DNA from: Halioglobus japonicus
GTDB lineage: Bacteria; Pseudomonadota; Gammaproteobacteria; Pseudomonadales; Halieaceae
Length of the DNA stretch: 64,000 nucleotides
Direction: 5' to 3'
Assembly (NCBI GenBank): GCA_902705825.1
Contig: CACSIL010000052.1
Span: forward strand, 154,348-218,347
Below the pieces are notes generated by a model. The model had not been told where the DNA came from. It saw nothing but the letters and a program-made list of their open reading frames with translations, and did not search any database. The stretch's first letter is position 1, and each line of letters starts with the position of its first letter. A program made the translations under genes and the position numbers. Of the stretch, positions 6,270-25,328 are shown one piece after another.

Positions 6270-6270
6270 T

Positions 6271-6309
6271 CGGCAGTGGCCTGCCAATCTGGTTAGTAAT
6301 GCACTGCCG
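6271..6309. repeat. inverted repeat after the binding-protein gene
   Basis: CGGCAGTG at 6271-6278 pairs perfectly with CACTGCCG at 6302-6309 across a 23-base loop, starting 1 base after the stop codon. There is no T-tract, so it is more likely a 3'-end stabilising hairpin than a classical terminator. Confidence 0.35.
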
Positions 6310-6667
6310 CCGTGGGTGGAGCTGCGTTTATGAATGCATGTCAGATGTTGATGCCGATAGTGCAGAAGTCTGATGACAAAGACAACATGTAACCTTTTGG
6401 ACTTTGGGACAGATCAACAACCCGGCTTGGACAGACAATCTTTCACATCTAAAAAGCGGTATCAGCTTTTGCTCTGCCCCAAATTACGCGCTATACCGCT
6501 ACCATTGCCAGACCTAATCCACGCTGTTATGGAGTGGCGCAAGCTGGGTGTGTCTGCACAACAAGATGTCCGCTGCCATTAGCTTTCTCCTTGTCCTTGC
6601 CAGCACTGTACGCAACAAGTAACATCGCCCGACCACAAAGACTCAATAGACAACGCAATCTCCAATC
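6310..6667. other. intergenic region before the metal-efflux operon
   Basis: About 360 bases without a convincing gene. A 69-codon open frame at 6373-6582 lacks a ribosome binding site and family features. The promoter of the metal-efflux operon should lie in its right half, but no clear MerR-type spaced promoter or regulator gene was found. Confidence 0.5.
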
Positions 6668-6979
6668 GTGAAATTTTTTGTTGCCATTTTTTTCGCTCTC
6701 CAGATGCTTATCAACTGCACGCTGGCGTTTGCGCACATGGCAAGTGATATGCATGATCCACACGATGCAGCACAGACAAGCACAGCTTCAGATCTCTTTG
6801 AGCAATCAGCGGGCAGCGACTCAGACCTCGACGACAACACCCACTGTCACCTCTGCGCAATAGCACTGAATACCTCTTTCGCGAGTGCGCCAATCGCACG
6901 GCACTTCGCGACAACACCCTTCGCACAGCAGCGCGCGAATAGCGGCACCTCACCTCCCGTACGCCCACCTAACGCCTGA
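6668..6979 (+). CDS. small exported Cys/His protein (DUF2946/CopL-like) ahead of czcCBA
   Basis: 103 aa from a GTG start. A signal peptide covers about residues 1-22. The rest is polar and rich in His, Asp and Ser, with HCHLCAIAL near residue 58 as the only conserved-looking motif. Small exported proteins with an HxxC core (DUF2946, CopL-type) are commonly encoded ahead of metal-efflux genes and are thought to bind or sense metal. It lies 70 bases upstream of the TolC-like gene in the same direction. Family membership is inferred from layout and the motif only. Confidence 0.6.
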   Translation: MKFFVAIFFALQMLINCTLAFAHMASDMHDPHDAAQTSTASDLFEQSAGSDSDLDDNTHCHLCAIALNTSFASAPIARHFATTPFAQQRANSGTSPPVRPPNA

Positions 6980-7049
6980 ACTCCCCCACCACTAACACTT
7001 TTAGTTTTTAGTCGGTGCGCTCCCCTGCGCGTCGGCTGCGGGAGTAATC

Positions 7050-8348
7050 ATGTATTTATCCAAACGACAGGTACGGCTGATGCTATCTGGCCGGATCGCA
7101 ACAATCGGGGCTGGCCTCGTGTTGACTCTGGCTGTCAGTCAAGGTGTTTCAGCACAGACAAGTATTGGCCTGGCCCGGGCGCTGCAGTTGTCCCTTGCCA
7201 ACAATCAGGAGCTGCAGCTCTACCCCTATCAACGCAACAGTTCCGAAGCGCTGCTATTGCAGGCGGGGCTGAGGCCCACGCCACGGGCTGAGCTGGTGGT
7301 AGAAAATGCGTTGGGCAGTGGCGATTACAGCGGCTTTGACGCCAGTGAAACCACGCTGGCTCTGAGTCAGGTGATTGAACTGGGAGAGAAGCGCGAGCAA
7401 CGTATATCGGTGGCTCAGGCCAGGCAGGATCTGCTCTCCACAGAGTATGAATTGAGCCGGCTCGATGTACTGGCTGAAACCAGTCGGCGCTACTACCAGA
7501 TGCTCGCAGTCCAGGCGCAAGCACAGATCAATGCCAAGCGGCTTGCCCAGGACCTAAAAGCCCTTGAGATCACCCGCAACCGCAACCGTGCCGGGGCGAC
7601 AGCTGCCGCCGATGTCTCCAAACTTGAATTGAGAGTGGCTCGCAGTCGCGCCACCGCACAGAGTTTAGACAACGCGCAATTACTCGCCGCCAGGCGGCTC
7701 GCAGCGATGTGGCAGGGAGAACCGGATTTTGAGCGGGTTGAGGGCGATCTTTCCGCTATGCCGGCGCTACCCAGTCTTCAGGCCCTGCGCACCGCCATCC
7801 AACGCTCTTCCAGCCTGGAACGTCAGTTTGCGCTGCTGCGCCTGGCGGATGCCAGCGTGGGATTGGCGCAGGCTAACGGCAAAAACGACCTGACACTGGG
7901 ACTGGGTCTGCGACACCTTGAAGCCAGCAATGATCAGGCACTGGTCTTTTTCGTTTCCACGCCCCTCAGTTTCAGCAACCCCAATGAGGGGCGCATCAGG
8001 GCAGCCAGAGCAGACCACTTGCGCGGCACCAGAGAGGCCGAGTTACTGACACAAACTCTGGAGTTGGAATTGCTGCAGCTCTACCAACAACTGCAGAACC
8101 ACCGCGATCAGGCATTACAGGTGAGAGACGAACTGCTCCCCCGGTCGCGCAAGCTCATTGACGATATCCAGCAAGGCTATCAGCTGGGCCAGTACTCTGC
8201 CCTGCAATGGGTCGACGCACAGGAGGAACGCTTTGTGCTGGAGCGCGAGCTCATCGATCTCTACACCACTATTTACCTGCTACTACTAGAGCTTGAACGC
8301 ATTACTGGCGAGCCTCTACAAGGCGTCATTGAAGGAGATATTTCATGA
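7050..8348 (+). CDS. czcC: outer-membrane efflux channel, CzcC/TolC family
   Basis: 432 aa. A signal peptide ends near residue 35 (VSAQ). The rest is the duplicated TolC-type helical/beta barrel pattern, with SLANNQELQL early and a long coiled region about 160-240. It should form the outer-membrane exit duct of the RND pump encoded downstream. The start is supported by GGGAG, 5 bases before the ATG. Its stop overlaps the adaptor's start by 4 bases, so the three efflux genes are translated as a unit. Confidence 0.88.
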   Translation: MYLSKRQVRLMLSGRIATIGAGLVLTLAVSQGVSAQTSIGLARALQLSLANNQELQLYPYQRNSSEALLLQAGLRPTPRAELVVENALGSGDYSGFDASETTLALSQVIELGEKREQRISVAQARQDLLSTEYELSRLDVLAETSRRYYQMLAVQAQAQINAKRLAQDLKALEITRNRNRAGATAAADVSKLELRVARSRATAQSLDNAQLLAARRLAAMWQGEPDFERVEGDLSAMPALPSLQALRTAIQRSSSLERQFALLRLADASVGLAQANGKNDLTLGLGLRHLEASNDQALVFFVSTPLSFSNPNEGRIRAARADHLRGTREAELLTQTLELELLQLYQQLQNHRDQALQVRDELLPRSRKLIDDIQQGYQLGQYSALQWVDAQEERFVLERELIDLYTTIYLLLLELERITGEPLQGVIEGDIS

Positions 8349-9568
8349 CTATTCGTACCCTATTGATATGTACCGCTCTCTATCTGACTTTCAATGCCAG
8401 TGCCGTTCTCGCCAGTGCAGATGACAGCGAACACACTGAAGCACCGAAAGGCCCTCACGGAGGCACACTGCTCAGCGACGCCCGCGGCCTCACGCTGGAA
8501 GTCACCATATTCAACCGGGGCATCCCACCCGAAATGCGCATATTTGCCTATCGGGATGGCGAACCTCTTTCGCCGTCTGAACTTGACGTGAACGTCCGAC
8601 TGAACCGTCTCGGTGGCGAAGTAACTCAACTGACATTTGCGCCCGAAGACGATTATCTGGTCAGTGGTGAAATGGTCCCGGAACCTCACTCGTTTGAAGT
8701 CTCAGTCATTGCCCGCTCAGCGGGATTGGATTACCAATGGCAGTACGACAACCCCGAAGGGCGTACACAGATCAACGAACGCGAGCAACAATTAGCAGAA
8801 CTGACAACCGAGCGCGCAGGCCCGATGACTCTGGTATTTACCGACACCCTGTTCGGCGTTATCGCCGCAGTAGCGGATCAGGTGTATCGCGTAAACGCGC
8901 CTTACCCGGGAATGGTTGTGTCTGTGTATGTCAACGTGGGAGACAGGGTCAAAGAGGGTCAGAAAGTGGCCACCCTGCGCAATACACAGACCTTGCAGAA
9001 TTACGATGTAACCAGCCCCGCAAACGGCGAGGTGACGGCCAGATCTGTCAATACCGGTGATCGTGCCGATGATGGCGCACTGGTTGAGATCACCGACCTT
9101 TCCCAGGTCTGGGTCGAACTCTCCGCTTTCCCGGAGGATATTGAAAAGCTCGCGACAGGCCAGGCCGTAACCGCATACGATCTACACCACCACGAGGTGG
9201 CGCACAGCACCATCAGCTACATCGCCCCGAGTATGACCGGCGGCCATATTGCAAGAGCGAGGGCAACCATTCCCAACCCTGAGGGACATTGGCGTCCGGG
9301 CATGCACCTCAAGGCTGATGTTGAAACAGGCAGGCGCAATGTACCTCTGGCAATACGCAACAGTGCACTGCAAACCATTGCAGAGCAGCCCGTGGTGTTC
9401 GCCCGCTATGGCAACACATTCGAAGTACGCATGCTCGAACTGGGTGACAGTACCGAAGAGTTCTCGGAGGTATTGAGCGGGCTACAGCCCGATACGGAAT
9501 ACGTCACCAACAACAGCTTTGTGCTAAAAGCCGACATTCTCAAAGGTGGTGTCAGCCACGATCACTAG
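8345..9568 (+). CDS. czcB: RND metal-efflux periplasmic adaptor, CzcB family
   Basis: 407 aa. After a signal peptide (about 1-23), an N-terminal domain with PKGPHGG and a long beta-rich region (about 35-140) precedes the adaptor core. This extra N-terminal domain is typical of CzcB-type, not drug-type, adaptors. The lipoyl half-motifs include PYPGMVVSVYVNVGDRVKEG and ANGEVTARSVNTGDR. The C-terminus ends SHDH, a possible metal ligand. It lies between CzcC and CzcA, 9 bases before the latter. Confidence 0.88.
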   Translation: MTIRTLLICTALYLTFNASAVLASADDSEHTEAPKGPHGGTLLSDARGLTLEVTIFNRGIPPEMRIFAYRDGEPLSPSELDVNVRLNRLGGEVTQLTFAPEDDYLVSGEMVPEPHSFEVSVIARSAGLDYQWQYDNPEGRTQINEREQQLAELTTERAGPMTLVFTDTLFGVIAAVADQVYRVNAPYPGMVVSVYVNVGDRVKEGQKVATLRNTQTLQNYDVTSPANGEVTARSVNTGDRADDGALVEITDLSQVWVELSAFPEDIEKLATGQAVTAYDLHHHEVAHSTISYIAPSMTGGHIARARATIPNPEGHWRPGMHLKADVETGRRNVPLAIRNSALQTIAEQPVVFARYGNTFEVRMLELGDSTEEFSEVLSGLQPDTEYVTNNSFVLKADILKGGVSHDH

Positions 9569-9577
9569 GAGATCGCA

Positions 9578-12500
9578 ATGATCGATAAAATTATCAGTGC
9601 CTCAGTACGCAGGCGCTGGCTGACGCTGTTCGCCACCTTACTGCTGGTAGGTCTGGGCATTTATAACGGTAGCAAGTTGCCGATTGATGCCGTGCCCGAT
9701 ATCACCAACGTACAGGTACAGATTAACACCGAGGCGGAGGGCTACTCGCCACTGGAGGTTGAACAGCGCGTCACCTATGTGGTGGAAAACGCGATGGCGG
9801 GTATACCTCTACTGGACTACACGCGCTCACTGTCTCGCTATGGATTGTCACAAGTCACTGTGATTTTCCAGGAAGGCACCGACATCTATTGGGCCAGACA
9901 ACAAGTCGCCGAACGACTCCAGGGTATTCGCAGCGAACTGCCTCCAGGGATGGAGCCCAGCCCTGGCCCCATTGCCAGCGGCCTGGGCGAAATATTCATC
10001 TATGCTGTCAGGGCTAAACCCGGTGCAGTTAAACCCGACGGCTCTGCGTACTCGATAGAAGATCTTCGCACTATTCAGGACTGGATAATCCGCCCGCAGC
10101 TAGTAACAACACCCGGTGTAACCGAGATCAACAGCGTGGGCGGATTTGAGCGCGAGTATCAGGTCGCGCCCGACCCACTGAAATTGCTGGCTTTCAAAAT
10201 CACCGTGGAGGATGTCATCAAGGCGCTGCAAAGCAACAACCAGAATGCCGGTGCCGGTTATATTGAACGGCGCGGAGAGCAGTGGTTGATTCGCTCCAAC
10301 GGACAACTGAGCGATCTTGAAGAGATCGGCCAGGTAGTTGTTGCCAAGCGCGATGACGCCCCTGTAAGGGTTTCCGATGTGGCCGAAGTCAGCTACGGCA
10401 AGCAGCTGCGCACCGGCTCGGCAACGCTCAATAGCGAGGAAACCGTTCTGGGCACAGCGTTTATGTTGCTGGGAGAAAACAGCCGCACCGTATCGAAAGC
10501 CATTGGCGCTGCTCTGGTGCGGGTTAATCTCAGCCTACCTGAGGGTGTCGAGGCTGTCGCGCTTTACGATCGCACCTCGTTGGTGGACAAAACCATCGCC
10601 ACCGTCAGGACAAACCTGTTCGAGGGTGCGGTACTGGTTATTGCGGTAATGTTCCTGCTACTGGGCAACATTCGTGCGGCATTCATCGCCGCACTCGTCA
10701 TCCCCTTGTCCATGCTGTTTGCCATTACCGGCATGGCGGCCAACCGAGTGTCGGGCAACCTGATGAGTCTGGGTGCAATCGATTTCGGCCTGATAGTGGA
10801 CGGCGCAGTGATAGTCGTTGAGAACGCCCTCCGCCGCCTGGGCTCGGCGCAACAAAAACTCGGCAGGCTGCTAACGCTTGAGGAGCGGCTGCGCGAGGTC
10901 ACCGCGAGTACTCGCGAGGTTGTGCGACCCGCTGTATTCGGTGTCTTTATTATCATGCTGGTCTACCTGCCGCTGTTCGCGCTCACTGGCGTAGAAGGAA
11001 AAATGTTTCAGCCAATGGCCTTTACCGTAATCGCCGCGCTGGCTGGCTCCCTGATTTTTTCGGTTACTTTCGTGCCCGCCGCTATCGCAGTTCTGGTAAG
11101 GGGAAACATCAATGAACGTGAGAACCCCTTGATGCGCTTTGCTCAGCGTCTATATCGGCCACTACTGGCATATGCGCAAAAATACTCTGCGCTGGTGATC
11201 GCTTGCGCCGTGTTATTAGTGGTCGCTGCGGGTGTGCAATCAACCCGCATGGGCAGCGAATTTCTACCGCAGCTGGATGAGCATGATATTGCCATGCATG
11301 CACTGCGAATCCCGGGAACAGGCATGGAGCAATCCACGCGGATGCAAATGCAACTGGAATCCAGGCTGCGCGAGTTTTCTGAGGTAGAACGGGTCTTTTC
11401 CAAAATCGGCACGCCAGAAATTGCGACAGACCCGATGCCCCCCAATATGGCTGACACCTTCCTGATTCTGAAACCACGGCAGCAATGGCCCAACCCATCA
11501 ATGCCCAAGTCGCAACTGCTGGCGGAACTGCGGGAGGCTGTGGAAAGCGTTCCCGGTAATAACTATGAGTTTACCCAGCCGATTGAGATGCGTTTCAACG
11601 AACTGATTGCAGGTGTGAGGTCTGATGTCGCTATTCGTATTTACGGCGACGATATGGCGACCCTGGCAAACGTCGGCGAACAGGCCCAACAGTTACTGAC
11701 TCAGATCAGCGGCAGCAAGGATGTACGTGTCGAACAGACAACCGGCCTGCCCGTGGTAAACATAGACCCCAAACGCGATCACATGGCGCTCCTCGGTCTT
11801 AATGTGTCTGACGTACAACAGGCCCTGCAAGCGGCGATCAGCGGTGTACAGACAGGACTTATCTATGAGGGCGACAGGCGTTTCCGCCTGGTGGTACGGC
11901 TCGATGAGAAGCTGCGTCGTTCACCCGAGTCCCTTGCCTCCCTGCCCATAATCATTCCCGACAGTACCAACCCTGAACTGGCATATGTGCCACTGGGTGA
12001 AATCGCCGACATCACCGTGACCGAGGGGCCCAATCAGATAAATCGTCGCAGCGGCAAACGCAATGTCGTCGTTACCGCCAACGTGGAAGACCGCGATCTG
12101 GGCAGTTTCATTGGAGAGACGCAGAACCTGATGGACGCGCGACTGGACATGCCCAGTGGCTACTGGCTGGAGTATGGCGGCACATTCGAGCAACTGCAGT
12201 CCGCATCGCAGCGCCTGTCTATTGTGGTGCCGCTAACACTGCTGTTGATACTGGGCCTACTGTTCGGCGCTTTTAACTCAGTGCGCGACGCCCTGATAAT
12301 ATTCACCGGGATACCACTGGCCCTTACTGGCGGGATACTGGCGCTGACGTTGAGAGGAATGCCGCTATCTATCTCGGCAATGGTGGGGTTTATTGCCCTG
12401 TCCGGAGTAGCAGTGCTCAACGGCGTGGTCATGCTGACGTTCATCGGTGAGTTACGCAGGCAGGGGGTACCGCTTGCCGAGGCAATTGAACAGGGAGCCA

Positions 12501-12838: not shown

Positions 12839-14743
12839 TTAGTTGCCAGGATGAGCAATAAATAAGTACCTGTAATCATCTGCCATTTTTCCGGCGAGTT
12901 CGATGCCCCCACTTAATGACAGGTGGCCATAATCAATAAAGGCCAGCTTTCCGTCTTCTGTAAAAATTCTGCACGATCCGGGACACTGGTATTGCTGATA
13001 GTCGATAAAAGGTGCGAGTGGCTCTACAGCGCTTTTGAGCAAGCGGTTTCCCTCCCTCTCGGAACTCACGATATGATTATTCGCGTAGGCTTCCATGCCG
13101 CTTATTGATGATTCTCCGGAATCCACGATCAGACTTGGTACGCTGCTCACGAAGCGGATTCCCGAGCCAACAACGATGACCTTTTCCGTTTTTGAGTACA
13201 AATATTGTATAGCCTGTTTCAGTAGAGGAAGCTCGTCATAGCTCCACGACGAAGACAGGATGACGCCATCGATTCGATCATCGGGCAGGAAATCCGAGAG
13301 AATAAAATCTACCAGACGCTCACATGTCTCGTACTGGCCTACCCCCCCAAATGGGCTGCAAGCCTCTGCCGTGGCCTGCAGGAAATTAACATCCGGATAA
13401 GCCGTTGACAAAATACTGTAGGTATCAGCGGCAAAGCTATCACCCAGTATCAGGTAATTTTGGCCTTGTGGTTCCTTGTTCAGACAAGTCGACTGATTAA
13501 ACTCGGAGAAGGATTGTGTCTTCATCAAAAAGCACTCTCCAACGCGCGTCACCGCATTTCGTTCTCTCCACATCTCGTCCGCACTTGGAATAGCGCTTAT
13601 CGCCTCTGGCAAACGAAAACGCCAACCTTTCGTGTAGATGGCCTGCCCCGAAACCAAAAATATCAACAAGGCAGCTACGATAATGGGGGTAAATCCTCTC
13701 GCAGACCGGGTGCTACCGCTGCGTGAATTTGATCGAAGTGGTGTCTCAATGTATCGGTACATCAGCGCAGCGAGAACGAAAAAGGAAAGTAGCAGACCAC
13801 CCTTCTCCAGATAATCCAGCTCTGTCCCAAACTGATACTTGAAGAAGACAATGACAGGCCAGTGAACCAGGTACAGAGAGTAGGAAATTGCTCCCGTATA
13901 AACCATAAGCTTATTGGTTAGTAGCTTGCCCGCAACGTTATCGTTCGCAGCGTAGATGATCAGTGCTGTGGCAATACAGGGTATTAAAGACAGGAACCCC
14001 GGCATGGGCGTCGTATCGTCAAAATTGAGGAAAGAGAGTACTAGAATGAATAAACCCAGCAGCAAAAATAGCCCGGAGAAAAAGCGTTTCTGCGCCAGCG
14101 CGCTGGGAAATCTGACAACCATGGCCCCGATGCAGAATTCAAATATTCTAAATGGCGTCAGAAAAAATGCGGCTCCCGGGTCTGCACCTTGTACTGCTTG
14201 GGCCAGCAACAAAGACAGAATGGCTACTATAAAAATCGCCGGCCAGAATACAGAGTGCTTTCTGGCGCTGTAAAAAATCGCCAGAAAGGCGGGCCAGACA
14301 ATATAAAATTGTTCTTCAACAGCGAGTGACCAGGTATGTAATAACGGTTTCAGGTGAGCCGCAGAATCAAAATAGCCCAGTTCGCTCCAGAACAAAAAAT
14401 TGGATAATGAAAAAACGGAGAGGAGCGCTACGATAGCCAACCTGAAAGAGTGGTCTGGCGGGAACAGCAAAAAACTCAAAAGCAGCGTGAAGATCAGCGT
14501 AGCAAATAAGGCGGGCAGTAAACGCCGGGCTCTTCTGGCATAGAATTTTCTAAAACTGAACTGCCGTTTTCCAAGATCTGACAGGATGTTCCTGGAAATC
14601 AAATAACCGGAGATAACAAAAAATACGTCAACCCCAAGAAACCCTCCCGGAATAAATGAAAAATCCAGATGGAACAGAATAACGGATAGAACGGCTAGCG
14701 CCCGTAAGCCTTCTATATCCTTTCGTTTTACCGATTGTTGCAC
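12839..14743 (-). CDS. OafA/OatA-type O-acyltransferase with C-terminal SGNH domain
   Basis: 634 aa. Residues 1 to about 345 form an acyltransferase-3 membrane domain starting KRKDIEGLRALAVLSVILFH, with the catalytic His, and about ten helices. Residues about 395-630 form a periplasmic SGNH hydrolase-like domain with GDSFAAD (block I) and DYGHLS near the end (block V, Asp-x-x-His). Such fusions transfer acyl, mostly acetyl, groups from the cytoplasm onto surface polysaccharide or lipid-linked sugars. It stands alone between the czc operon and the glycosyltransferase fusion gene, so decoration of the O-antigen or exopolysaccharide made nearby is the likely job. Confidence 0.9.
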   Translation of the reverse strand: MQQSVKRKDIEGLRALAVLSVILFHLDFSFIPGGFLGVDVFFVISGYLISRNILSDLGKRQFSFRKFYARRARRLLPALFATLIFTLLLSFLLFPPDHSFRLAIVALLSVFSLSNFLFWSELGYFDSAAHLKPLLHTWSLAVEEQFYIVWPAFLAIFYSARKHSVFWPAIFIVAILSLLLAQAVQGADPGAAFFLTPFRIFEFCIGAMVVRFPSALAQKRFFSGLFLLLGLFILVLSFLNFDDTTPMPGFLSLIPCIATALIIYAANDNVAGKLLTNKLMVYTGAISYSLYLVHWPVIVFFKYQFGTELDYLEKGGLLLSFFVLAALMYRYIETPLRSNSRSGSTRSARGFTPIIVAALLIFLVSGQAIYTKGWRFRLPEAISAIPSADEMWRERNAVTRVGECFLMKTQSFSEFNQSTCLNKEPQGQNYLILGDSFAADTYSILSTAYPDVNFLQATAEACSPFGGVGQYETCERLVDFILSDFLPDDRIDGVILSSSWSYDELPLLKQAIQYLYSKTEKVIVVGSGIRFVSSVPSLIVDSGESSISGMEAYANNHIVSSEREGNRLLKSAVEPLAPFIDYQQYQCPGSCRIFTEDGKLAFIDYGHLSLSGGIELAGKMADDYRYLFIAHPGN

Positions 14744-15722: not shown

Positions 15723-18700
15723 ATGAAGAACTGTCTATTCGTATTGGGAATGCATCGCAGTGGGACATCGGCATTCACCGGCATTCTCAACCTCCTCGGC
15801 GTCAATCTCGGCACGAAGATGCTCGAGACGCAGCGCGATAATCCCAAGGGGTTCTTTGAGAATAAATACGTTGTTCTGGCCAATGATTGCATTCTGGAGT
15901 CGTTTAACTCCTCCTGGGATGATCCTCTACCCCTGCCGGAGAACTGGCCGCAAAAATTCGAGGAATCCCAACTTGTAGACGATGTCCGCCATTTCCTGCG
16001 CACCGATATTCCCGATGCCGAACTATCGGCACTGAAGGATCCCAGGTTGTGCCGGTTGCTGCCATTTTGGCTGCCGTTGCTGACAACCGAAAATATCACA
16101 CCACGCGCTGTACTGGTGATTCGCAGCCCACTGGAAATTGCTGATTCACTTGCGCGCAGAAACGGGTTTTCTCTTGATAAGTCGCTGGTTCTCTGGATGC
16201 AGTACATGCTGGAGGCCGAGAAGAATACCAGACACATGCCGCGCTGCTTTGTGAAGTTCGAAGCCGTACTCAGCACGCCCCGGGAGACTATCGAGCACGT
16301 TTTTGACACGATCGGACTGGAAAAACCCGATTTTGCATCAGTCGATCCGGAAAAAGTTGAACAGTTCGTCGACCAGGATATGCGGCATCACGAGGTGTCG
16401 GATTCAGATCTCGACGCGCGCTGTCACAAGACAATCGCCGATTACTACAGACTGTTGTGTGAGGTGTCAGAGCGCGAGGTAACGGCGCAAGATCACGAGG
16501 CCTTTGACGCCTTGGGTGAACAGTTTCAGATCAATCAAACGCTGTTTTACAACAGCGATATTGCATTGGCACTGGAAAAGGCCAAGCAAGAAAGCGCACC
16601 GGACTGGTATCAGGCAAAGCTGAACCGCATCAAAGCGCAACTTGACGCCGACAAAACGTTCCGCGAATACCGCTATATCGCCAACACGGAACACCTCTAC
16701 CACGCGCGAATTGAACTGCAGAATCAATCCGATGCGCTGAGGGGCGAAATCGACAAGCTGCAGGCTGAAATAGCAAATCTGCAGCAGCAGATTGCACAGC
16801 TACAAAATCAATTGAACACGCCACACCTGACAATCTCTGCGTTGCGAAACGAGCTGGCAGTCCAACAGGATGACATTAACCTCCTTAACGACACGAGCTC
16901 CAAGCTGCGGGCGGATTTGGCATCACGGGTGGACAACATCACCGGGCTGCAAAATGACATCGCAGAGCTTCAGGGGACTATTTCCAGCCTGCAGCATGAG
17001 CAGACAACACTGCAGAACGTCATTGCAGCCCAGAAAATTGTTCTCACGGCGCAAAAATCGGAAGAAGCGGCACGACTGAAAGAGGTAGCTGAACTGCGAG
17101 AGAACCTGGAAAGCCGGCAGAACAGCGAAACCCAGTTGCTCGCCAGAAATGACGAGTTGGAGAGAATAGTTTTTCAGCTTTATGCCACGCGGCCCATGCG
17201 GGTGTACCAAAAGTATCAGCGCTCGGTCGAGGCAGTATTCCCCGAAGGTACCCTGCTGCGAAAGCTGCTAAAGTGGACCAAGGGTGTTTTAACGGGTGAG
17301 AAAGCGGAGCGTACTGCGCTGCAAGACAATGCCCAGATCAGTGAGACACAAGGTGCGAATGCTGGCGAGGAAATCGAACCTGCAATTGTAATGGACACTG
17401 CCGAACAGCACACCGCTGAGGCCCCCGCCAACGAATCTGAAGACGCGAATAACAATACCGCACCGGCTAACTCGCAAGCAGCAGAGGATCAGAACGCGGT
17501 TATAGCGGGACACAGCGAAGAGATGCAGGTGTCAGGAGATGCTGCCGGCGAACGCGCTGCGGATGAGACCTCGCCGGCGAACGCGGATGTTGCCATTGAT
17601 ACGAAACGCGAGAGCAAACCGGAACTCTTCCTTGTTCCCACCGTCACAGCGCCCCCGCCAGTGGATTCCGCAAATGATGTGATGCCAGCTACCGCCTCAC
17701 CTGATCAGGCCCCTGTGCATGATCAAGCTAAGCAAGCAGTGATCAGTGAGGCGGCCCGTTTATCCGCCGAGACCAAAGCCGACAATATCTACGGTGTTGC
17801 GGTAGACGAGCCTGCCGCTGCCGACATACCAGAAAGAGCGGCCGACCCCTCTGCAGCTCAGGCACCTGCCGCTACTGAAGAACAACCATCAACGCCGGAT
17901 GAATCACAAGGCACAACAGTATCGGGCGAAGCTCTCGATCCGCGAGACATCGTGTTTCCAACCACCGAAAACCCGAATGTCAGTATTATTATTCCTGTGT
18001 TCAACAACTGGGCGTTTACCCATAAATGCCTGCATTCCCTGTTTCTTTACAACCGGGGAAGCTACGAAATTATTGTCGTAGACAACAACTCGACAGACGA
18101 GACGCCGCAACACCTTTCTGCCATCACGGGCATTCAGGTGATCACCAACGAGAGCAATGAAGTGTTTGTCAACGCCTGCAATCAGGCTGCTCAAGTTGCC
18201 AGAGGCAACTACCTGCTGTTTTTGAACAACGATACCGAGGTCAGCGAGGGGTGGCTCGAAGCCATGCTGGCACCCTTCTCGGACGCCAGCACCGGAGTGG
18301 TAGGCGCGAAGCTTGTGTACCCGGACGGCTCGCTGCAGGAAGCGGGCGGCATCATCTGGAATGATGGCAACGGCTGCAACTATGGTCACGGTGACAACCC
18401 CGACCTTCCCAAGTACTCCTATCGCAAGGCCGTCGATTACTGCTCTGGTGCCTGCCTGATGATTGCAAGCAGCCTGTGGCATGAGATCGGCGGTTTTGAC
18501 CAACGTTTTGCGCCGGCCTATTACGAGGATACGGATCTGTGTTTTACCGTTCGCGCACTCAACTACAAGGTTATCTACCAACCCGCTGCCCGGATAGTGC
18601 ATTACGGCGGCGCATCCGCCGGCAAGGAGACCAGTTCCGGCTACAAGCGCTACCAGGACATCAATCGCGAAAAGTTCATAGCGAAGTGGCAGGAAGTTCT

Positions 18701-20702
18701 CGATAGGGATCATGTTCCAAGTTCCGCCGGCCTCTTTGGAGCCAGAGAGAGAACCGGTGATAAGCACATCCTGATCATTGACCATCAGGTACCCACCTTT
18801 GACAGGGACTCCGGCTCTTTGCGCATGCTCAATATGTTGCAAATCCTGCTGGATATGAACTACAAGGTATCTTTCTGGCCAGACCAGCTCAATTACGACG
18901 CAAAGTACACACGGGTTTTACAGGATCTCGGCATCGAAACCTATTACGGCGACCTGCAGTTCGAGAACTTCATAAAAGAGCACGGCAACGCACTGGACTT
19001 TGTAATGATGTCGCGCCCCGCCACTACCAAAAAGTACATGCATCTCGTGAAGAAGTACTCGGCGGCTAAAACCATCTTTGATACCGTCGATCTCCATTAC
19101 GTGCGCGAGCAACGCCGCCTGGAACTGGAAGTCCAGCGCTGGAAAAATCTGGAGTTTTTTCTGGCCGAAGAGGCCGATGTCACGCTGGTTGTCAGCCATA
19201 CAGAAAAACAGATGCTTGAAGATCAGAACTTTGCGGACAAAATTTCAGTGGTCTCCAATATCCATTCACTGGAGCCTTGTGAAAAGGGTTTTGAAGAGCG
19301 CTCCGGCCTGATGTTCATAGGCAGCTTTGCGCATCCGCCCAATGAAGAAGGCATCATCTGGTTTATCGATTACATTCTGCCACTTATCAAGAAAAAGATA
19401 CCCGATATCCATCTGACTATCGTCGGCAGTGAACCGACCCAGCGACTGCTGGAAATGGCCAATGAGTCCGTCACGGTGACCGGTTTCGTAGAAGATGTTT
19501 CCGGCTACTTTAATGACAGCAGAGTGTTTGTATCGCCACTGCTGCACGGAGCAGGCGTCAAAGGGAAAATTGGCCAGAGTTTTTCCTACGGTCTACCCGT
19601 TGTCACCACCAGTATTGGTGCTGAAGGTATGCAGCTGACAGATGGGCTGAACGCGCTGATCTCAGACAGCGAAACAGCATTCGCCGATAGCGTTATCGCT
19701 TTGTACCAGGATAAATTTCTCTGGCAGAGACTCTCAACCAACTGCCGTCAGGTGATCAGGGAGCAGTTCAGTACCGAAACAATCCGCACAGCCTTGGAAG
19801 GAATTATGGAAGCAGAATCACCCAAACAAGCACTCAAAAAATCTGTCAGCCGCCCGGTGATCGTGCATTGCCATCTTTTCAAAAATGCCGGAAGCACGCT
19901 TGACTGGAGTTTGCAGCGACAATTTGGAGCCGGGTTTATCGATCACCGGGATGATGACAATATGCGTCGCGGCGCCGCGTATCTGAAGCCATATCTGGAA
20001 GCCCACAAGCAGGTTTCAGCAATCTCCAGCCATCACATCAGGTTCCCTCTTCCCAATTCTGAAGAGTTGCAGCTATTGCCTCTTATCTCACTGCGACACC
20101 CGATCGACCGGGCTCGCTCAGTGTACGATTTTGAACGGCGTCAGGAGTCCAATACCCCCGGCGCCATACACGCGAAAAAGCTGTCTTTTGCAGACTACGT
20201 GCGTTGGCGCATGCAGCCCGACGTCGCGCCGACCATTCGCAATTTCCATTGCAGCTTTTGTACCAGCAACTTCGACAGCCCCATAGGCGAGTCGGCGTAT
20301 CTGGAAAGCGTATCCATGCTGATAAAGACACCACTGCTGGTCATCGTTGAACGTTACGACGAAAGTATGGTGCTACTTGAACAGGAACTTGAGCCGTACT
20401 TCCCAGGTATTGACCTGTCCTACCTCCGCCAGAACGAAACCTTCGGTCGGGAAGTGCAACTGGTACAGCGAATCGAATCTGTTTTCGAGCAGCTGGGGCC
20501 AGAGCTTACCATCGAGTTTCGCGAGAAGAATCACTGGGATATGAAACTGTACGAGAACTCACTGGCAATACACGGTGAACGCATGGGCGCACTCCGGAAT
20601 CAGGATCGATTGATGGCAGATTTTCAGGCGCGGTGCCGCTTGCTGTCGGCTGCCACATTACCCAGCAATGCGAGGGAGACTCCGGAGTCACAGGTGGGCT
20701 GA
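15723..20702 (+). CDS. 1659-aa fusion: sulfotransferase / coiled coil / GT2 / GT4 / sulfotransferase
   Basis: The largest protein in the window. Residues about 1-230 are a PAPS-dependent sulfotransferase (FVLGMHRSGTSAF, the 5'-phosphosulfate loop, then VLVIRSPLEIADSLARR). About 325-485 is a heptad-rich coiled coil, then an Ala/Glu-rich low-complexity linker to about 745. About 753-990 is a GT2 glycosyltransferase (VSIIIPVFNNW, VVDNNSTDET, FLNNDTEV as DxD-type site). About 1014-1370 is a GT4-like domain (HILIIDHQVPTFDRDSGS, GSFAHPPNEEG, HGAGVKGKIGQS). About 1379-1640 is a second sulfotransferase-like domain (HCHLFKNAGSTLDW). All are cytoplasmic. It presumably builds and sulfates a surface glycan with the wbp genes nearby. 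Substrates are unknown. Confidence 0.85.
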   Translation: MKNCLFVLGMHRSGTSAFTGILNLLGVNLGTKMLETQRDNPKGFFENKYVVLANDCILESFNSSWDDPLPLPENWPQKFEESQLVDDVRHFLRTDIPDAELSALKDPRLCRLLPFWLPLLTTENITPRAVLVIRSPLEIADSLARRNGFSLDKSLVLWMQYMLEAEKNTRHMPRCFVKFEAVLSTPRETIEHVFDTIGLEKPDFASVDPEKVEQFVDQDMRHHEVSDSDLDARCHKTIADYYRLLCEVSEREVTAQDHEAFDALGEQFQINQTLFYNSDIALALEKAKQESAPDWYQAKLNRIKAQLDADKTFREYRYIANTEHLYHARIELQNQSDALRGEIDKLQAEIANLQQQIAQLQNQLNTPHLTISALRNELAVQQDDINLLNDTSSKLRADLASRVDNITGLQNDIAELQGTISSLQHEQTTLQNVIAAQKIVLTAQKSEEAARLKEVAELRENLESRQNSETQLLARNDELERIVFQLYATRPMRVYQKYQRSVEAVFPEGTLLRKLLKWTKGVLTGEKAERTALQDNAQISETQGANAGEEIEPAIVMDTAEQHTAEAPANESEDANNNTAPANSQAAEDQNAVIAGHSEEMQVSGDAAGERAADETSPANADVAIDTKRESKPELFLVPTVTAPPPVDSANDVMPATASPDQAPVHDQAKQAVISEAARLSAETKADNIYGVAVDEPAAADIPERAADPSAAQAPAATEEQPSTPDESQGTTVSGEALDPRDIVFPTTENPNVSIIIPVFNNWAFTHKCLHSLFLYNRGSYEIIVVDNNSTDETPQHLSAITGIQVITNESNEVFVNACNQAAQVARGNYLLFLNNDTEVSEGWLEAMLAPFSDASTGVVGAKLVYPDGSLQEAGGIIWNDGNGCNYGHGDNPDLPKYSYRKAVDYCSGACLMIASSLWHEIGGFDQRFAPAYYEDTDLCFTVRALNYKVIYQPAARIVHYGGASAGKETSSGYKRYQDINREKFIAKWQEVLDRDHVPSSAGLFGARERTGDKHILIIDHQVPTFDRDSGSLRMLNMLQILLDMNYKVSFWPDQLNYDAKYTRVLQDLGIETYYGDLQFENFIKEHGNALDFVMMSRPATTKKYMHLVKKYSAAKTIFDTVDLHYVREQRRLELEVQRWKNLEFFLAEEADVTLVVSHTEKQMLEDQNFADKISVVSNIHSLEPCEKGFEERSGLMFIGSFAHPPNEEGIIWFIDYILPLIKKKIPDIHLTIVGSEPTQRLLEMANESVTVTGFVEDVSGYFNDSRVFVSPLLHGAGVKGKIGQSFSYGLPVVTTSIGAEGMQLTDGLNALISDSETAFADSVIALYQDKFLWQRLSTNCRQVIREQFSTETIRTALEGIMEAESPKQALKKSVSRPVIVHCHLFKNAGSTLDWSLQRQFGAGFIDHRDDDNMRRGAAYLKPYLEAHKQVSAISSHHIRFPLPNSEELQLLPLISLRHPIDRARSVYDFERRQESNTPGAIHAKKLSFADYVRWRMQPDVAPTIRNFHCSFCTSNFDSPIGESAYLESVSMLIKTPLLVIVERYDESMVLLEQELEPYFPGIDLSYLRQNETFGREVQLVQRIESVFEQLGPELTIEFREKNHWDMKLYENSLAIHGERMGALRNQDRLMADFQARCRLLSAATLPSNARETPESQVG

Positions 20703-20829: not shown

Positions 20830-21246
20830 ATGGCTACAGAATTCAATATGGGCAGTTTTTTCGCTCGATGGCTCTTCGCTATCGCCCTCGTATTCGGAAC
20901 ATACAACCCCTCAGATTATTCCTATGTCAGCTGGGTCATGGCCCAAAGCGCCGATTTTGGGCCTGTGATGGCATTAATTGGTATCGTTTTACTAATCGGG
21001 TGGGTGGTCTTCCTGCGGGCCACGATACTGTCATTGGGAGTACTGGGCATCGTACTGGGGGGCGCGCTCTTTGCCTGTATCATCTGGTGGTTCGTGGACC
21101 TTGGATTGCTCAGTCTGGACGCCACAGGCGCACTTGCCTGGGTCGTTTTACTGATACTGTCGTTTATCCTCGCCACCGGGATGTCCTGGTCGCATATCAG
21201 GCGCCGACTAACCGGACAGTTCGATGTTGATGAGAAAGATGGTTGA
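20830..21246 (+). CDS. DUF6524-type four-helix membrane protein
   Basis: 138 aa with four membrane segments (about 10-25, 43-62, 66-88 and 100-118) and a short charged tail ending DVDEKDG. The early motif FGTYNPSDYSYVSWV resembles the NP-x-x-(Y/F)S signature of the DUF6524 family, small inner-membrane proteins of unknown function in marine Proteobacteria. An ATG at 20848 (MGSFFARW) is an alternative start; neither has a strong ribosome binding site. It is convergent with wbpM and probably not functionally tied to it. Confidence 0.7.
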   Translation: MATEFNMGSFFARWLFAIALVFGTYNPSDYSYVSWVMAQSADFGPVMALIGIVLLIGWVVFLRATILSLGVLGIVLGGALFACIIWWFVDLGLLSLDATGALAWVVLLILSFILATGMSWSHIRRRLTGQFDVDEKDG

Positions 21247-21312: not shown

Positions 21313-23352
21313 CTAGTAGCTATCTGGAAACAGCTCTTTAACATTTGAAGCCGCCGCGTTCTCTATCGCCAACAGCTTGCCCTGGCGCTTCCAGAGATGG
21401 TCGTAGCGTACCTCATGATCGCCAAATCCGCTTACTGCAAAGCTCAGCACTGAACTAATGCCATCGCAGTCGAGGGAGTCACAATGACCTCGCAGTTTTG
21501 CCAGCAGCCGCTGAATCTGGCCAAAGGGCAGACACTCCTCCTCTGCGCGCATGATCATCGGGTGTCCCGTTCCGGTGACATTCGTCCCCAACAATAACTC
21601 CTCATGCAGTTTTTCCCCGGGGCGCAGTCCGATGAACTCAATTTCAATCTGCTGGCCTCCCTGGGTGTTGTGGCCCATTTCATAGCCACTGAGCCTTATC
21701 ATGCGTTTTGCCAGATCGACAATACGCACCGGCTCTCCCATATCCAGGACAAAGACATCGCCGCCAGTGGCCATTGCTCCGGCCTGCAACACCAGTTGCG
21801 CCGCTTCCGGTATGCTCATGAAGTAGCGCGATACATCCGGGTGAGTCACCGTGACCGGCCCGCCATCCTCAACCTGTTGCCGGAACAGTGGTACCACTGA
21901 TCCGGACGAGCCCAGTACGTTGCCGAAACGGACCATACAAAACCGGGTATCGCTCTCTTGTTGAGCCAATCCCTGCAAAATCATTTCGGCCAGTCGCTTG
22001 GAGGCACCCATAATATTTGTCGGGCGCACGGCCTTGTCGGTCGATACCAGTACAAATGTCTCTACGCCAGCCTTGCGCGCCGCTGTTGCCGCATACCAGG
22101 TGCCGAAAACGTTGTTGGCCACACCCTCGGCAATGTTGTACTCCACCATCGGGACATGCTTATAAGCAGCGGCGTGATAGACCGTACAGACTTCAAACGT
22201 ACGGTAAATACTCTCGAGGCGATTTTGATCCTGAACAGAACCCAGCAGGGCGACGATTTCCACCTGCAGGCCGAGCGCTGTCGCCATCGAGCGCAGCTCT
22301 CGCTCAATGCTGTACAGCGCATACTCGGAATTATCGAGCAGGATCAGTTCCTTTGCAGCAGAGCGAATAATTTGTCGACAGAGTTGAGCTCCGATGGAAC
22401 CACCGGCACCAGTCACCATCACGACCTTTCCGGTAATACATTTTTCTATCAATTCCGGGTGCGGCGGCACAGGCTCCCTGCCCAGCAAATCGTCGAGATC
22501 GATGTCGCGAATCTGGTTGACGCTGGCTTCACCAGCCAGCAACTCATTGATCGTGGGCACCGTGCGGACGTGGACAGGCATACCGACCAGAGAATTGATG
22601 ATCTCCTTGCGACGCTCCTGTGATGCTGACGGAATAGCCAGAAGTACCTGGGTTATATCGTGCTGATCGATCAGCTGCTCCAGATCTTCCGGCGGCGCTA
22701 CCTGCAGGCCGTTGATGATGGAACGTTGCAAGTAGTGATCATCGTCGACGAATACCACGGGGTGGTATTGCTCACCGTGCTGCAGTGTTTGCAGTAGTTG
22801 CCGACCGGATTGCCCCGCACCGTAGATAATCACATTCTCGGATAAGGCGCGCAATTTGGCCTGGTAGTATGCCCGCACTGCCAGCCTTGTCCCGCCGATG
22901 CCGACCACGAGAAGTATCCAGTAAATAAAAGGCATTGAGCGCGGCACTTCGGCACGTGTGAAAAAGACCGCGGCGCCTAAAATCAATGTGGAATAACCGG
23001 CTGCCGTGACAATCGCCCAGATCGCCTGCTGGCCCATGAAACGAATCACTGCGCGGTACAATCCAAGGCGCAAGAAAACCATCGCGCTGCCCACAAGGGT
23101 CACCGCCCCACAGGCGTATTCTACGGCTCCGAGTTGGAAATCAAGATGACCGAAACGCAATGCAACAGCCAGCCACATCGCCGCTGTGACATACACCATA
23201 TCAAGCGAGAACAGGCAGGCCTGCTTAATGTTGCGCGGCAGTTCTACTGCCTTTTGCAGTACATCTCTAAGGCTGCCGACAACACCGACAAAGGATCGGG
23301 TCATGAATTTGCGAGGACGAGTTAGCAAGTCACCTCCTGTGCTCCTGACCAT
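21313..23352 (-). CDS. wbpM: WbpM-type membrane UDP-GlcNAc 4,6-dehydratase (inverting class not resolved)
   Basis: 679 aa. About residues 40-165 hold four membrane helices, then a Rossmann domain with YGAGQSGRQLL. The catalytic half follows, with GAGGSIGAQLCRQI (NAD binding, about 317) and MGASKRLAE (about 446). That shows the Met-x3-Lys in place of Tyr-x3-Lys that marks WbpM/FlaA1-type dehydratases. It converts UDP-GlcNAc to a UDP-4-keto-6-deoxy sugar for O-antigen or capsule. The ATG at 23352 has no ribosome binding site, whereas AGGAGGTGA precedes a TTG at 23328, so the protein may be 8 residues shorter. It is last in a wbpV-wbpL-wbpM order. Confidence 0.92.
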   Translation of the reverse strand: MVRSTGGDLLTRPRKFMTRSFVGVVGSLRDVLQKAVELPRNIKQACLFSLDMVYVTAAMWLAVALRFGHLDFQLGAVEYACGAVTLVGSAMVFLRLGLYRAVIRFMGQQAIWAIVTAAGYSTLILGAAVFFTRAEVPRSMPFIYWILLVVGIGGTRLAVRAYYQAKLRALSENVIIYGAGQSGRQLLQTLQHGEQYHPVVFVDDDHYLQRSIINGLQVAPPEDLEQLIDQHDITQVLLAIPSASQERRKEIINSLVGMPVHVRTVPTINELLAGEASVNQIRDIDLDDLLGREPVPPHPELIEKCITGKVVMVTGAGGSIGAQLCRQIIRSAAKELILLDNSEYALYSIERELRSMATALGLQVEIVALLGSVQDQNRLESIYRTFEVCTVYHAAAYKHVPMVEYNIAEGVANNVFGTWYAATAARKAGVETFVLVSTDKAVRPTNIMGASKRLAEMILQGLAQQESDTRFCMVRFGNVLGSSGSVVPLFRQQVEDGGPVTVTHPDVSRYFMSIPEAAQLVLQAGAMATGGDVFVLDMGEPVRIVDLAKRMIRLSGYEMGHNTQGGQQIEIEFIGLRPGEKLHEELLLGTNVTGTGHPMIMRAEEECLPFGQIQRLLAKLRGHCDSLDCDGISSVLSFAVSGFGDHEVRYDHLWKRQGKLLAIENAAASNVKELFPDSY

Positions 23353-23403: not shown

Positions 23404-24390
23404 TTACGCCACTCTACCCACTTTCACCATGCCACAGAGCAGTGGAAGGTATGCCAAAAATACCAAAAATAGTTTGTAGTCAGGCCACATTTGCACCGCC
23501 AGAGCCAGCGGAAACAGCCACAATACGTTGATCGCCAACAACAGCAGGTCGACTCTCAGGTGTGAATTCCAGTGGCGACTCAAGCGCTGGTATGCGTGGG
23601 AGCGGTGGGGCTCGGTGAAGTTCTCGCCGCTTATCATGCGCCACCCCAGAGTCCAGCTCGCGTCGGTGACAAACACCGCCGACAGCACCAGCCAACACAG
23701 CGGATCCAACTGCCCCTGCACAGCCCCCAACAGCGCCAGTGCAGCCAGTAAAAATCCGGTCGGCACGCTACCGGCATCCCCCATAAACAACCGCGCGGGC
23801 GGCGCGTTCCAGGCGAGGAAACCGCCGTGCGCGGCAGCGAGTATCAGACAATAACGGACGTAGCTGTCATCGTGCCCCGCCAGCCATGTCAGGAACGCCG
23901 CACTGGTGCAGATGAACACCGCCTGCAGCGCGGCAATGCCGTCGATGCCATCCATAAAATTGTACAGATTGAGCGACCACAGCAGGATGAACGCTGCGCA
24001 CAGCAGCAGGGCCAGGTGTATAAAAACACCACCTGTATTTGCGCCGTACAACAGTGTGGCGGCAGCAAACAGACATACAATGGCATAGGTTAACAACCGC
24101 CAGCGAACCGACAAGCTGCGTAAATCATCGACAACGCCGACCAGCGCCAATATCAGGGTACAGGCTGTCAGCGTGACAAGGGGAGCCGCCCAGCCACCGT
24201 CGAGTGCAGCGGCGAGTATCAGGCCCAGCACAAAGGCCGCGAGCAATGCGACACCACCACCGTGGGGAGTCGGCAGGATATGCGAGCTGCGCTCATTGGG
24301 CGTGTCCAGAATTTGTCGCGCCCTGGCGAAACGCTCATAGAGGCCACACAAGACAACCGACAACACCAGAGTTAGCAAAACGGCCGTCAC
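23404..24390 (-). CDS. wbpL: WbpL/WecA-type undecaprenyl-phosphate sugar-1-phosphate transferase
   Basis: 328 aa, about ten or eleven membrane helices, of the MraY/WecA family. Cytoplasmic loops hold the family motifs TPHGGG (about 42-47), VDDLRSL (about 86-92), NFMDGIDG (about 143-150), RLFMGDAGS (about 198-206) and PHRSHAYQRL (about 262-271). It starts glycan assembly by moving an N-acetyl-6-deoxyhexosamine-1-phosphate from UDP to undecaprenyl phosphate. The start overlaps the epimerase stop by 4 bases. In P. aeruginosa O6 the homologous order wbpV-wbpL-wbpM is known. Confidence 0.92.
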   Translation of the reverse strand: MTAVLLTLVLSVVLCGLYERFARARQILDTPNERSSHILPTPHGGGVALLAAFVLGLILAAALDGGWAAPLVTLTACTLILALVGVVDDLRSLSVRWRLLTYAIVCLFAAATLLYGANTGGVFIHLALLLCAAFILLWSLNLYNFMDGIDGIAALQAVFICTSAAFLTWLAGHDDSYVRYCLILAAAHGGFLAWNAPPARLFMGDAGSVPTGFLLAALALLGAVQGQLDPLCWLVLSAVFVTDASWTLGWRMISGENFTEPHRSHAYQRLSRHWNSHLRVDLLLLAINVLWLFPLALAVQMWPDYKLFLVFLAYLPLLCGMVKVGRVA

Positions 24391-25328
24391 GAAGCGTTAC
24401 TCCGCGCCGCACCGACTTCCTTCATCGTGTCCGCAAGTGTAATAACAGGCCGCCAGGCGGTAGCGTGTATCACCGCGGCATTGCTGTAGAGCTCTGTACC
24501 GAACAATTTGTCATAAGTCGTTTGTCGGCTCCTGCGGGCCAACGCATCAAGCAGCCATGCACCCCACTGCCACACCCTGTGAGGCAGCCATCCAATGCCC
24601 CTGCCTTTGCCCTGGCTCTCACGCAACAAATCGTACACTTCCTGTGTACTGTAGGCCTGAGCGCCACAGGCTATCCAGGTGTGCACGCCTGCCGGTGGAC
24701 TCTGTGCTATCACACACAGCAGTTCCACCAGATCGCCAAGTGCAATCATCGAGCGTCTGCCTACCTGAGGTGGCCGCGGCAGTCCCCAGCGCACGCCTGT
24801 CGCCAGCGACTGCAGATTCCCCTTCACTTCAGCCCCGTAGACCAGTGCCGGGCGCACGATAACAACAGACATTGAGTGGCCCGCAAATTCCTCGCGCAGC
24901 GCGCATTCTGCCTGCCATTTGGATACGCCATAGGCATCTGTGGGTGGTGTGCAGGCGGATTCCGCGCGGATAGCCGGCGAGGGTGGCGCGCCCATCGCTT
25001 TTACGCTGCTAAGAAAGACGAAGCACCCGACACCCGCTGCTGCTGCTAATCGGGCCAGGCGCAACGTCCCGGTGTGATTCAGCGCGGCATACTCTGACTC
25101 AGGCGCACGCTGGTGAGCTATTCCAGCGAGGTGGAAAACGACATCCACGCCCTGCAGCAAGTTGGCATCAGGGTCACACCGGGCGAGGTCCACCGCTATT
25201 GTCGGCTGCCCGCTGCAAAGCGGTTCGCCGCGGTTACTCAACGGGACGACTGTATGGCCGTACGCGACCAGTTGCTGACAAAGCTGGCGACCGATAAACC
25301 CGGTCGCCCCGCTGACGAGGCATTTCAC
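24387..25328 (-). CDS. wbpV: WbpV-like NAD-dependent UDP-4-keto-sugar reductase/epimerase
   Basis: 313 aa extended short-chain dehydrogenase. The nucleotide-binding motif GATGFIG lies at residues 7-13, and the catalytic YGVSK lies near residue 143 with a Ser (FLSSVKAMG) about 30 residues earlier. It should reduce WbpM's 4-keto product to UDP-QuiNAc or UDP-FucNAc for WbpL. The three genes would make one complete initiator-sugar pathway. It begins the three-gene operon and is separated from comEA by that gene's terminator. The exact sugar product is not decided by sequence. Confidence 0.85.
   Translation of the reverse strand: MKCLVSGATGFIGRQLCQQLVAYGHTVVPLSNRGEPLCSGQPTIAVDLARCDPDANLLQGVDVVFHLAGIAHQRAPESEYAALNHTGTLRLARLAAAAGVGCFVFLSSVKAMGAPPSPAIRAESACTPPTDAYGVSKWQAECALREEFAGHSMSVVIVRPALVYGAEVKGNLQSLATGVRWGLPRPPQVGRRSMIALGDLVELLCVIAQSPPAGVHTWIACGAQAYSTQEVYDLLRESQGKGRGIGWLPHRVWQWGAWLLDALARRSRQTTYDKLFGTELYSNAAVIHATAWRPVITLADTMKEVGAARSNAS

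Follow-up and report, generated by a model that had tools for sequence, protein, structure and literature searches.

The window analysed here is a stretch of 64,000 nucleotides from Halioglobus japonicus, a member of the Halieaceae, and corresponds to positions 154348–218347 of contig C52 in the source genome (G000; 5.05 Mb in 53 contigs, 93% complete). A forward-strand gene (15723–20702, + strand) extends from ATG to TGA and encodes a protein of 1659 amino acids without an internal stop, and the remaining two frames of the same strand contain 52 and 73 stops over this interval. The protein has, in order, an N-terminal sulfotransferase domain (ST_N), a coiled-coil spacer, a linker, GT2 and GT4 glycosyltransferase domains, and a C-terminal sulfotransferase domain (ST_C). 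The initial annotation of this DNA described a single 1659-residue frame with four modules on one polypeptide; its coordinates and length are confirmed exactly, the frame is uninterrupted in seven other genomes of the genus, and the four modules are supported, with sulfotransferases of different families at either end. The eight full-length proteins are of a long and a short type, distinguished by the length of the spacer (see below).

To the left of the four-domain gene is a gene for an acyltransferase-3 plus SGNH protein (12839–14743, − strand; PF01757, 1.7e-28; PF19040, 4.7e-20), and to its right is a DUF6524 gene (20830–21246, + strand; PF20134, 3.8e-51), which directly follows the fusion in three long-type relatives and is more distant in three of the short type and in L040. 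Beyond this are genes for a CapD/WbpM-type nucleotide-sugar dehydratase (21313–23352, − strand; PF02719, 7e-122), a WecA-type polyprenyl-phosphate sugar-phosphate transferase (23404–24390, − strand; PF00953, 4.6e-30) and an NAD-dependent sugar epimerase/dehydratase (24387–25328, − strand; PF01370, 1.8e-27). The CapD/WbpM-type gene is located at most 7 kb downstream of the fusion and on the opposite strand in all eight full-length loci, and in each it is followed by the WecA-type gene (only partial in L036); the epimerase is present in seven of the eight, the L036 stretch stopping short of it. The pyrF and rpsA genes come next wherever the stretch extends that far, an order that presumably recalls the Pseudomonas O-antigen locus. 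In the short-type loci the genes in between encode beta-helix proteins, a glucosamine-isomerase-like protein and an iron alcohol dehydrogenase. The window ORFs that were scanned, a part of the total, include neither a flippase nor an ABC exporter.

Further along the window, a TPR-sulfotransferase protein is encoded at 53062–55041 (− strand; PF13469, E 7.5e-39). Scans of the whole genome give 25 PF13469 stretches and five PF03567 stretches, and sulfation is therefore seemingly a major theme of this genome, which also encodes an APS kinase for PAPS supply. The four-domain gene is among the matches of neither the PF13469 nor the PF03567 scan.

The sulfotransferase domains

ST_N (residues 1–300; 15723–16622, + strand) is assigned as a PF13469-type PAPS sulfotransferase domain from the PF13469 matches of its relatives and from its fold model. 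The motif GMHRSGTS, which the initial annotation had picked out as a PAPS loop, is located at residues 9–16 (15747–15770, + strand), is invariant in both a 12-row and a 33-row alignment, and is presumably the 5′-phosphosulfate loop of PAPS sulfotransferases. Downstream of it is R134-x-P136-x5-S142 (16122–16148, + strand), with R, P and S invariant in the 12 rows and R and S in the 33, and the same spacing recurs in the reference set of PF13469 members from this genome; we take R-x-P-x5-S to be the 3′-phosphate site of PAPS enzymes, in ST_N and ST_C alike. The N-terminal 310 residues of the window protein score 20.4 bits against PF13469, below the curated Pfam cut-off of 27, and we have filed ST_N as a divergent relative of that family; all 12 aligned ST_N members match it at E≤1 (best, 2.3e-8), and L149, one of the split relatives in which ST_C is a separate gene, scores 29.4 bits.

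Comparison of ST_N with eight PF13469 members of this genome by hhalign (88.2%) covers only 29 columns, and it is therefore the fold that carries the sulfotransferase claim. Predicted from 33 sequences, the N-terminal end has a sulfotransferase fold at pLDDT 87 and pTM 0.86; the alignment behind it took 29 of 70 viral loci, those set aside being mostly shorter or weaker, and L059 (which has a stop codon) and then L071, L084 and L092 were dropped beforehand. A structure search with this model reaches a Z of about 15 to PAP-bound sulfotransferases; the best match is 4gox (Z 15.2, rmsd 4.3, 203 aligned residues), TPST1/2 entries are at Z 14.4–15.0, and all of the 50 best-listed structural matches are sulfotransferases. 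The best Foldseek matches in the PDB are tyrosylprotein sulfotransferases and the sulfotransferase domains of olefin synthase and curacin (best E 4.8e-5; TM-scores 0.39–0.47), with P-loop-type kinases lower in the list. These proteins (PDB 3ap1-3, 5wri, 4gox and 4gbm) have the same fold as ST_N but are just 12–18% identical to it, and another substrate is expected. Judged by the model, the case for a sulfotransferase at the N-terminus is strong.

ST_C (residues 1376–1640; 19848–20642, + strand) is recognized as a PF03567-type domain from the PF03567 matches of its relatives, from profile comparison and from its PAPS motifs. It contains FKNAGSTLDW at residues 1386–1395, and K1387 of the 5′ loop together with R1458-x-P-x5-S1466 is invariant in 14 ST_C rows, as are K15, R112, P114 and S120 in the reference PF03567 set. 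The C-terminal 290 residues of the window protein have no Pfam match at E≤10 (the PF03567 cut-off is 22 bits); among the 14 ST_C members, seven have a PF03567 match at this threshold (best, 2e-8), and a separate ST_C-like gene on another contig of the same genome (G000:C8) scores 33.3 bits against that cut-off. When the ST_C profile is compared by hhalign with one from 14 PF03567 proteins, the result is 93.9%, with an E value of 1.5e-7 over 110 columns. The ST_C fold model was built from five sequences only and has a pLDDT of 37. Against the PDB the best hit of the profile is heparan sulfate 2-O-sulfotransferase, a PF03567 protein, at a weak E of 0.026; the likeness is in the region of the 3′ PAPS motif, and is weak, partial and not significant alone. 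A PF03567-type PAPS sulfotransferase is well supported for this end from the sequence comparisons. None of the viral contigs has a confirmed relative of ST_C.

The two ends thus look like PAPS sulfotransferases from different families, as judged from their profiles; hhalign between ST_N and ST_C gives just 1.0%. The initial annotation had gone further and proposed two different sulfotransferase folds. The difference in family stands, but that in fold is not supported; R-x-P-x5-S occurs at equal spacing in both domains and is invariant in both alignments and both reference sets.

Glycosyltransferase domains and linker

The GT2 domain occupies residues 745–1000 (17955–18722, + strand) and matches PF00535 at residues 754–918 (E 2.2e-28; 99.7 bits, cut-off 23.3). 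Of the rows with letters at the places concerned, all (28 of 28) have LNNDT and all (29 of 29) have Y-x-E-D, and E-D-x-D is retained; we take LNNDT and E-D-x-D to be the GT2 D and ED motifs. The GT4 domain follows at residues 1012–1366 (18756–19820, + strand), with a PF13692 match at residues 1196–1330 (E 1.1e-25; 91 bits, cut-off 27) and a PF00534 score of 33.3 bits (cut-off 26.4). The GT4 family signature is E-x7-E. Across the corresponding interval (19545–19592) the fused rows lack Glu at the first place and have Gln at the second, residue 1285 of the window protein (codon 19575–19577); all nine fused rows have this Gln, as do L143 and L167, whereas 16 of the 20 split rows have Glu. One of the glycosyltransferases could therefore be altered.

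Between the spacer and the GT2 domain, residues 531–744 (17313–17954, + strand) form an acidic, alanine-rich and fast-evolving linker; the initial annotation had noted an acidic linker of over 200 residues. Its 214 residues include 42 D+E, 9 K+R and 46 A, and residues 536–740 share just 32–36% identity with three orthologues (gapped), compared to 87–90% for GT2 and GT4.

Purifying selection acts on all four domains. Comparison with three orthologues gives dN/dS values of 0.08–0.11 for ST_N, 0.05–0.07 for GT2, 0.04–0.05 for GT4 and 0.03–0.04 for ST_C, which are rough, dS being 1.1–1.8; a fourth comparison, with G003, is too distant and mostly gives no usable dS. This bears on a reading in which one sulfotransferase domain is catalytically dead and merely binds PAP(S) or the acceptor. 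The Pfam scores of the window protein, below the cut-offs at both ends, would suit such a domain, but the phosphosulfate and 3′-phosphate motifs are invariant across 12 (ST_N) and 14 (ST_C) rows and selection has been retained on both domains, and we regard this reading as unlikely.

The coiled-coil spacer

A coiled coil was proposed in the initial annotation and is present in the window protein at residues 323–490 (16689–17192, + strand). In a simple heptad test confined to the longest stretch without P or G, this 168-residue spacer gives a z of 5.8, and none of 200 shuffles scores as high. Measured between two conserved motifs, the spacers of the long type are 168 (window), 186, 196 and 200 residues, whereas those of the short type, all retaining the four domains, are 19, 27, 34 and 19 residues, and that of the G002 fragment is 19. 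The gaps that separate the four long coils from one another measure 4, 7, 7, 7, 11 and 14 residues, which the phasing of coiled coils would allow. Of 14 split ST_N-GT2-GT4 relatives, whose linkers are 150–364 residues long, 12 reach a heptad z of at least 2; z is low in the long-type L034 (1.4) and in the split L153 (1.6) and L157 (0.3), and is below 2 in every short type. The coil may be ancestral and have been lost in the short type, or it may have been gained in the long type.

Immediately after the coil is a conserved module that begins with PMRVYQKYQ (residues 491–530; 17193–17312, + strand) and is kept in both long and short orthologues. It is a possible amphipathic helix, and may have a membrane role.

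The initial annotation also suggested that the coil could set chain length or oligomeric state. The long spacers of four orthologues (168–200 residues) agree with a ruler, but the other four full-length orthologues have spacers of 19–34 residues, and we reject the coil as a general ruler, although it may act as one in the long-type species.

Distribution and origin of the four-domain protein

The full four-domain frame occurs in eight of the 18 genus genomes searched, the window's own included (G000, G001, G003, G007, G008, G011, G013 and G016). Pieces are found at contig ends in G002, G005, G009 and G017, and five of the 18 (G004, G010, G012, G014 and G015) have none. In G006 an ST_C-like match of 44 residues, free of stops, is the sole content of a 64-residue frame that is bounded by stops on both sides; we take it as a remnant. 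One orthologue, L032, is cut at its end, and there (near base 29) the first residues of the match read SDVYKRQ, reminiscent of leftover sequencing adapter.

Seven more genomes from this genus carry the uninterrupted frame, and it is therefore neither a chance frame nor an assembly join. That ST_C exists as a separate gene in relatives would be expected if separate genes had been joined by assembly or annotation, but the assemblies of eight species carry the frame unbroken and these proteins group together in trees; we have rejected such an artefact, the chance of which is negligible.

Outside the genus, ST_C is more widely distributed. Matches at E≤0.001 are present in 58 of 140 family, 12 of 369 class and 14 of 398 phylum genomes, where the class and phylum genomes are drawn samples and the counts include the own genome and weak matches. 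Most of the strong matches outside the genus are in frames of about 250–330 residues, i.e. in separate genes. The neighbourhoods read were those of five class hits, out of 11 that are not in the source genome, and of 20 stretches with family hits, three of which belong to the genus. Among 27 split loci, whose shares are not frequencies because some were picked for a matching GT part, the fetched stretch includes a GT2-GT4 gene in 17, and in 14 of these the chain also includes ST_N. ST_C overlaps a GT2-GT4 gene on the same strand or is at most 60 bp from it in 10 of the 27, and in nine of these 10 close pairs it is downstream, which is the order of the fusion. No GT2-GT4 gene is present in the fetched stretch in nine of the 27, and ST_C can therefore do without GT2-GT4. 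The remaining locus, L158, is ambiguous.

Because ST_C is elsewhere separate, and often beside an ST_N-GT2-GT4 gene, the four-domain protein is, on sequence grounds, a gene fusion that joined an ST_N-GT2-GT4 gene to ST_C, its frequent downstream neighbour. A single branch separates the nine fused rows from all others in both the GT2-GT4 tree (support 100/100) and the ST_C tree (100/99). The former used 28 of 29 rows, leaving out the fragment L047, along with ORFs lacking GT2 or GT4, and the latter used 42 rows, from which ST_C stretches no longer than about 200 residues were omitted. The trees are unrooted, and the simplest reading is that the fusion arose once.

Several variations were seen among the separate genes. 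The genome of the window itself has a GT2-GT4 gene with an adjoining ST_C gene (L043, G000:C8, 5864–9496) and an ST_N with an adjoining GT2-GT4 gene (L044, G000:C18, 8084–12873). Two adjacent copies of ST_C, mostly overlapping, are present in L149, L151, L154, L160, L161 and L162, from several genera. In L158 (G454, 5200–9623), a possible second case of fusion, the reading frames of both ST_N and ST_C shift, and the ST_C frame is longer than usual.

Relationship to known systems and proposed function

The order of modifying domain, coiled coil and GT modules that characterizes the polymerase-terminators is found in the window protein, but the coil is missing from four of the eight full-length orthologues. 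WbdD, WbbB and Klebsiella O7 ORF6 cap chains with methyl, methyl-phosphate or Kdo (PMC11231755, PMC3482155), and O7 ORF6 is a polymerase-terminator with a modifying domain, a coil and two C-terminal GT modules (PMC11231755). Klebsiella pneumoniae O7 ORF6 and O12 WbbB and E. coli O9a WbdD resemble the window protein in their N-terminal modifying domain and coiled coil, and possibly in an amphipathic segment after the coil, and O7 ORF6 and O12 WbbB also in having C-terminal GT modules on the same chain (PMC11231755, PMC3482155). The window protein differs in having a sulfotransferase where these have a methyltransferase/kinase or a Kdo transferase, in the combination of GT2 plus GT4, and in its additional C-terminal sulfotransferase (PMC11231755, PMC3482155). 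Its family departs from them further in that half of the full-length orthologues are without the coil, and PF14524 is unmatched in the genome.

Sulfotransferases are associated with other polysaccharide clusters, although as separate proteins. One O-antigen cluster of Aeromonas salmonicida encodes both WbbB, a large GT protein of several modules, and ORF19, which has a sulfotransferase domain but is a separate protein of 216 aa, unlike the fused domains of the window protein; no sulfate is reported for this O-antigen, and the gene table has no second sulfotransferase (PMC4483657). The synechan xss cluster (XssA and XssE; PMC8205485) and Actinoplanes wps-1 (WpsB and WpsH; PMC13390465) each bring two sulfotransferase families to one polysaccharide, but again on separate proteins; the ratio of sugars to sulfate given for synechan is 8 to 2 (PMC8205485). 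Searches of the open-licence literature found no bacterial protein that joins two sulfotransferases with glycosyltransferases.

We consider it likely that the four-domain protein is a glycan-assembly enzyme that builds and doubly sulfates a lipid-linked surface glycan, and that it arose by fusion of ST_N-GT2-GT4 with ST_C. The enzyme would be cytoplasmic and would probably touch the membrane. The presence of a WecA-type neighbour points to an acceptor on polyprenyl; this neighbour would start an O-antigen-like glycan on polyprenyl diphosphate, to which GT2 and GT4 would each add one sugar. The two PAPS-dependent domains, ST_N and ST_C, would sulfate this glycan at two different positions, with ST_C acting right beside the glycosyltransferases and ST_N held away by the coil in the long-type species. 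Catalysis by the individual domains, the acceptor, the sequence of reactions and the glycan made in the cell are inferences here. The extension and sulfation of a glycan by one polypeptide, as proposed in the initial annotation, is plausible both from the domains and from the CapD/WbpM-type, WecA-type and acyltransferase neighbours.

Two more specific readings are special forms of this explanation. According to one, the protein is a polymerase-terminator with a sulfate cap, in which GT2 and GT4, and perhaps ST_C, would polymerise and ST_N would sulfate the non-reducing end; placed distally on the coil, ST_N would cap long chains, so that growth stops and the chain is marked for export. The domain order, like that of Klebsiella O7 ORF6 (PMC11231755), favours this, as do the coil-like spacers of the window protein and three orthologues, the heptad signal in 12 of the 14 split relatives, the gaps of 4, 7, 7, 7, 11 and 14 residues among the long coils, and the possible amphipathic segment after the coil. 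In G181, moreover, an ABC ATPase and an ABC-2 permease (L143, 4133–5562) are divergent from an operon of ST_N-GT2-GT4 plus ST_C, but the ATPase is a mere 224 aa, and in the 93%-complete source genome there is no match to PF14524 (Wzt_C), one type of carbohydrate-binding module of the ABC transporters by which products of polymerase-terminators are exported. Four orthologues keep all four domains with 19–34 residues in place of the coil, the heptad signal is low in L034, L153 and L157, and no sulfate-terminated example was found in the open-licence literature searched. We think this reading rather unlikely. Its fuller version, in which GT2 and GT4 polymerise, ST_C sulfates en route and ST_N stops chains of a set length, with sulfate serving as both stop signal and export mark, we hold to be unlikely.

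The other special form is decoration of a repeat unit in a Wzx/Wzy-type pathway, in which every lipid-linked repeat would receive one sugar from each glycosyltransferase and one sulfate from each sulfotransferase, with the coil serving purely as a scaffold. That the coil is dispensable in four orthologues agrees with this. The genome has three Wzy_C matches, a family that takes in O-antigen ligases too, but none of the three is within the window. In the synechan cluster, two sulfotransferases of distinct subfamilies accompany a Wzx/Wzy system (PMC8205485). We give repeat-unit decoration somewhat less than an even chance.

Halieaceae are reported to be abundant in coastal seas, and reports of sulfated polysaccharides from marine bacteria are appearing, with few of the pathways worked out so far. 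The fusion described here is new and its parts are known, no earlier description having been found in our searches. Spacers ranging from 19 to 200 residues combined with the same catalytic domains are a natural series that bears on the ruler idea, and if the sulfate-capping reading is true, the spacers of the genus, at 19, 27, 34, 168, 186, 196 and 200 residues, would amount to a length series found in nature. With sugar transfer and sulfation by two families on one chain, and in a conserved locus, the link to one surface glycan is directly testable.
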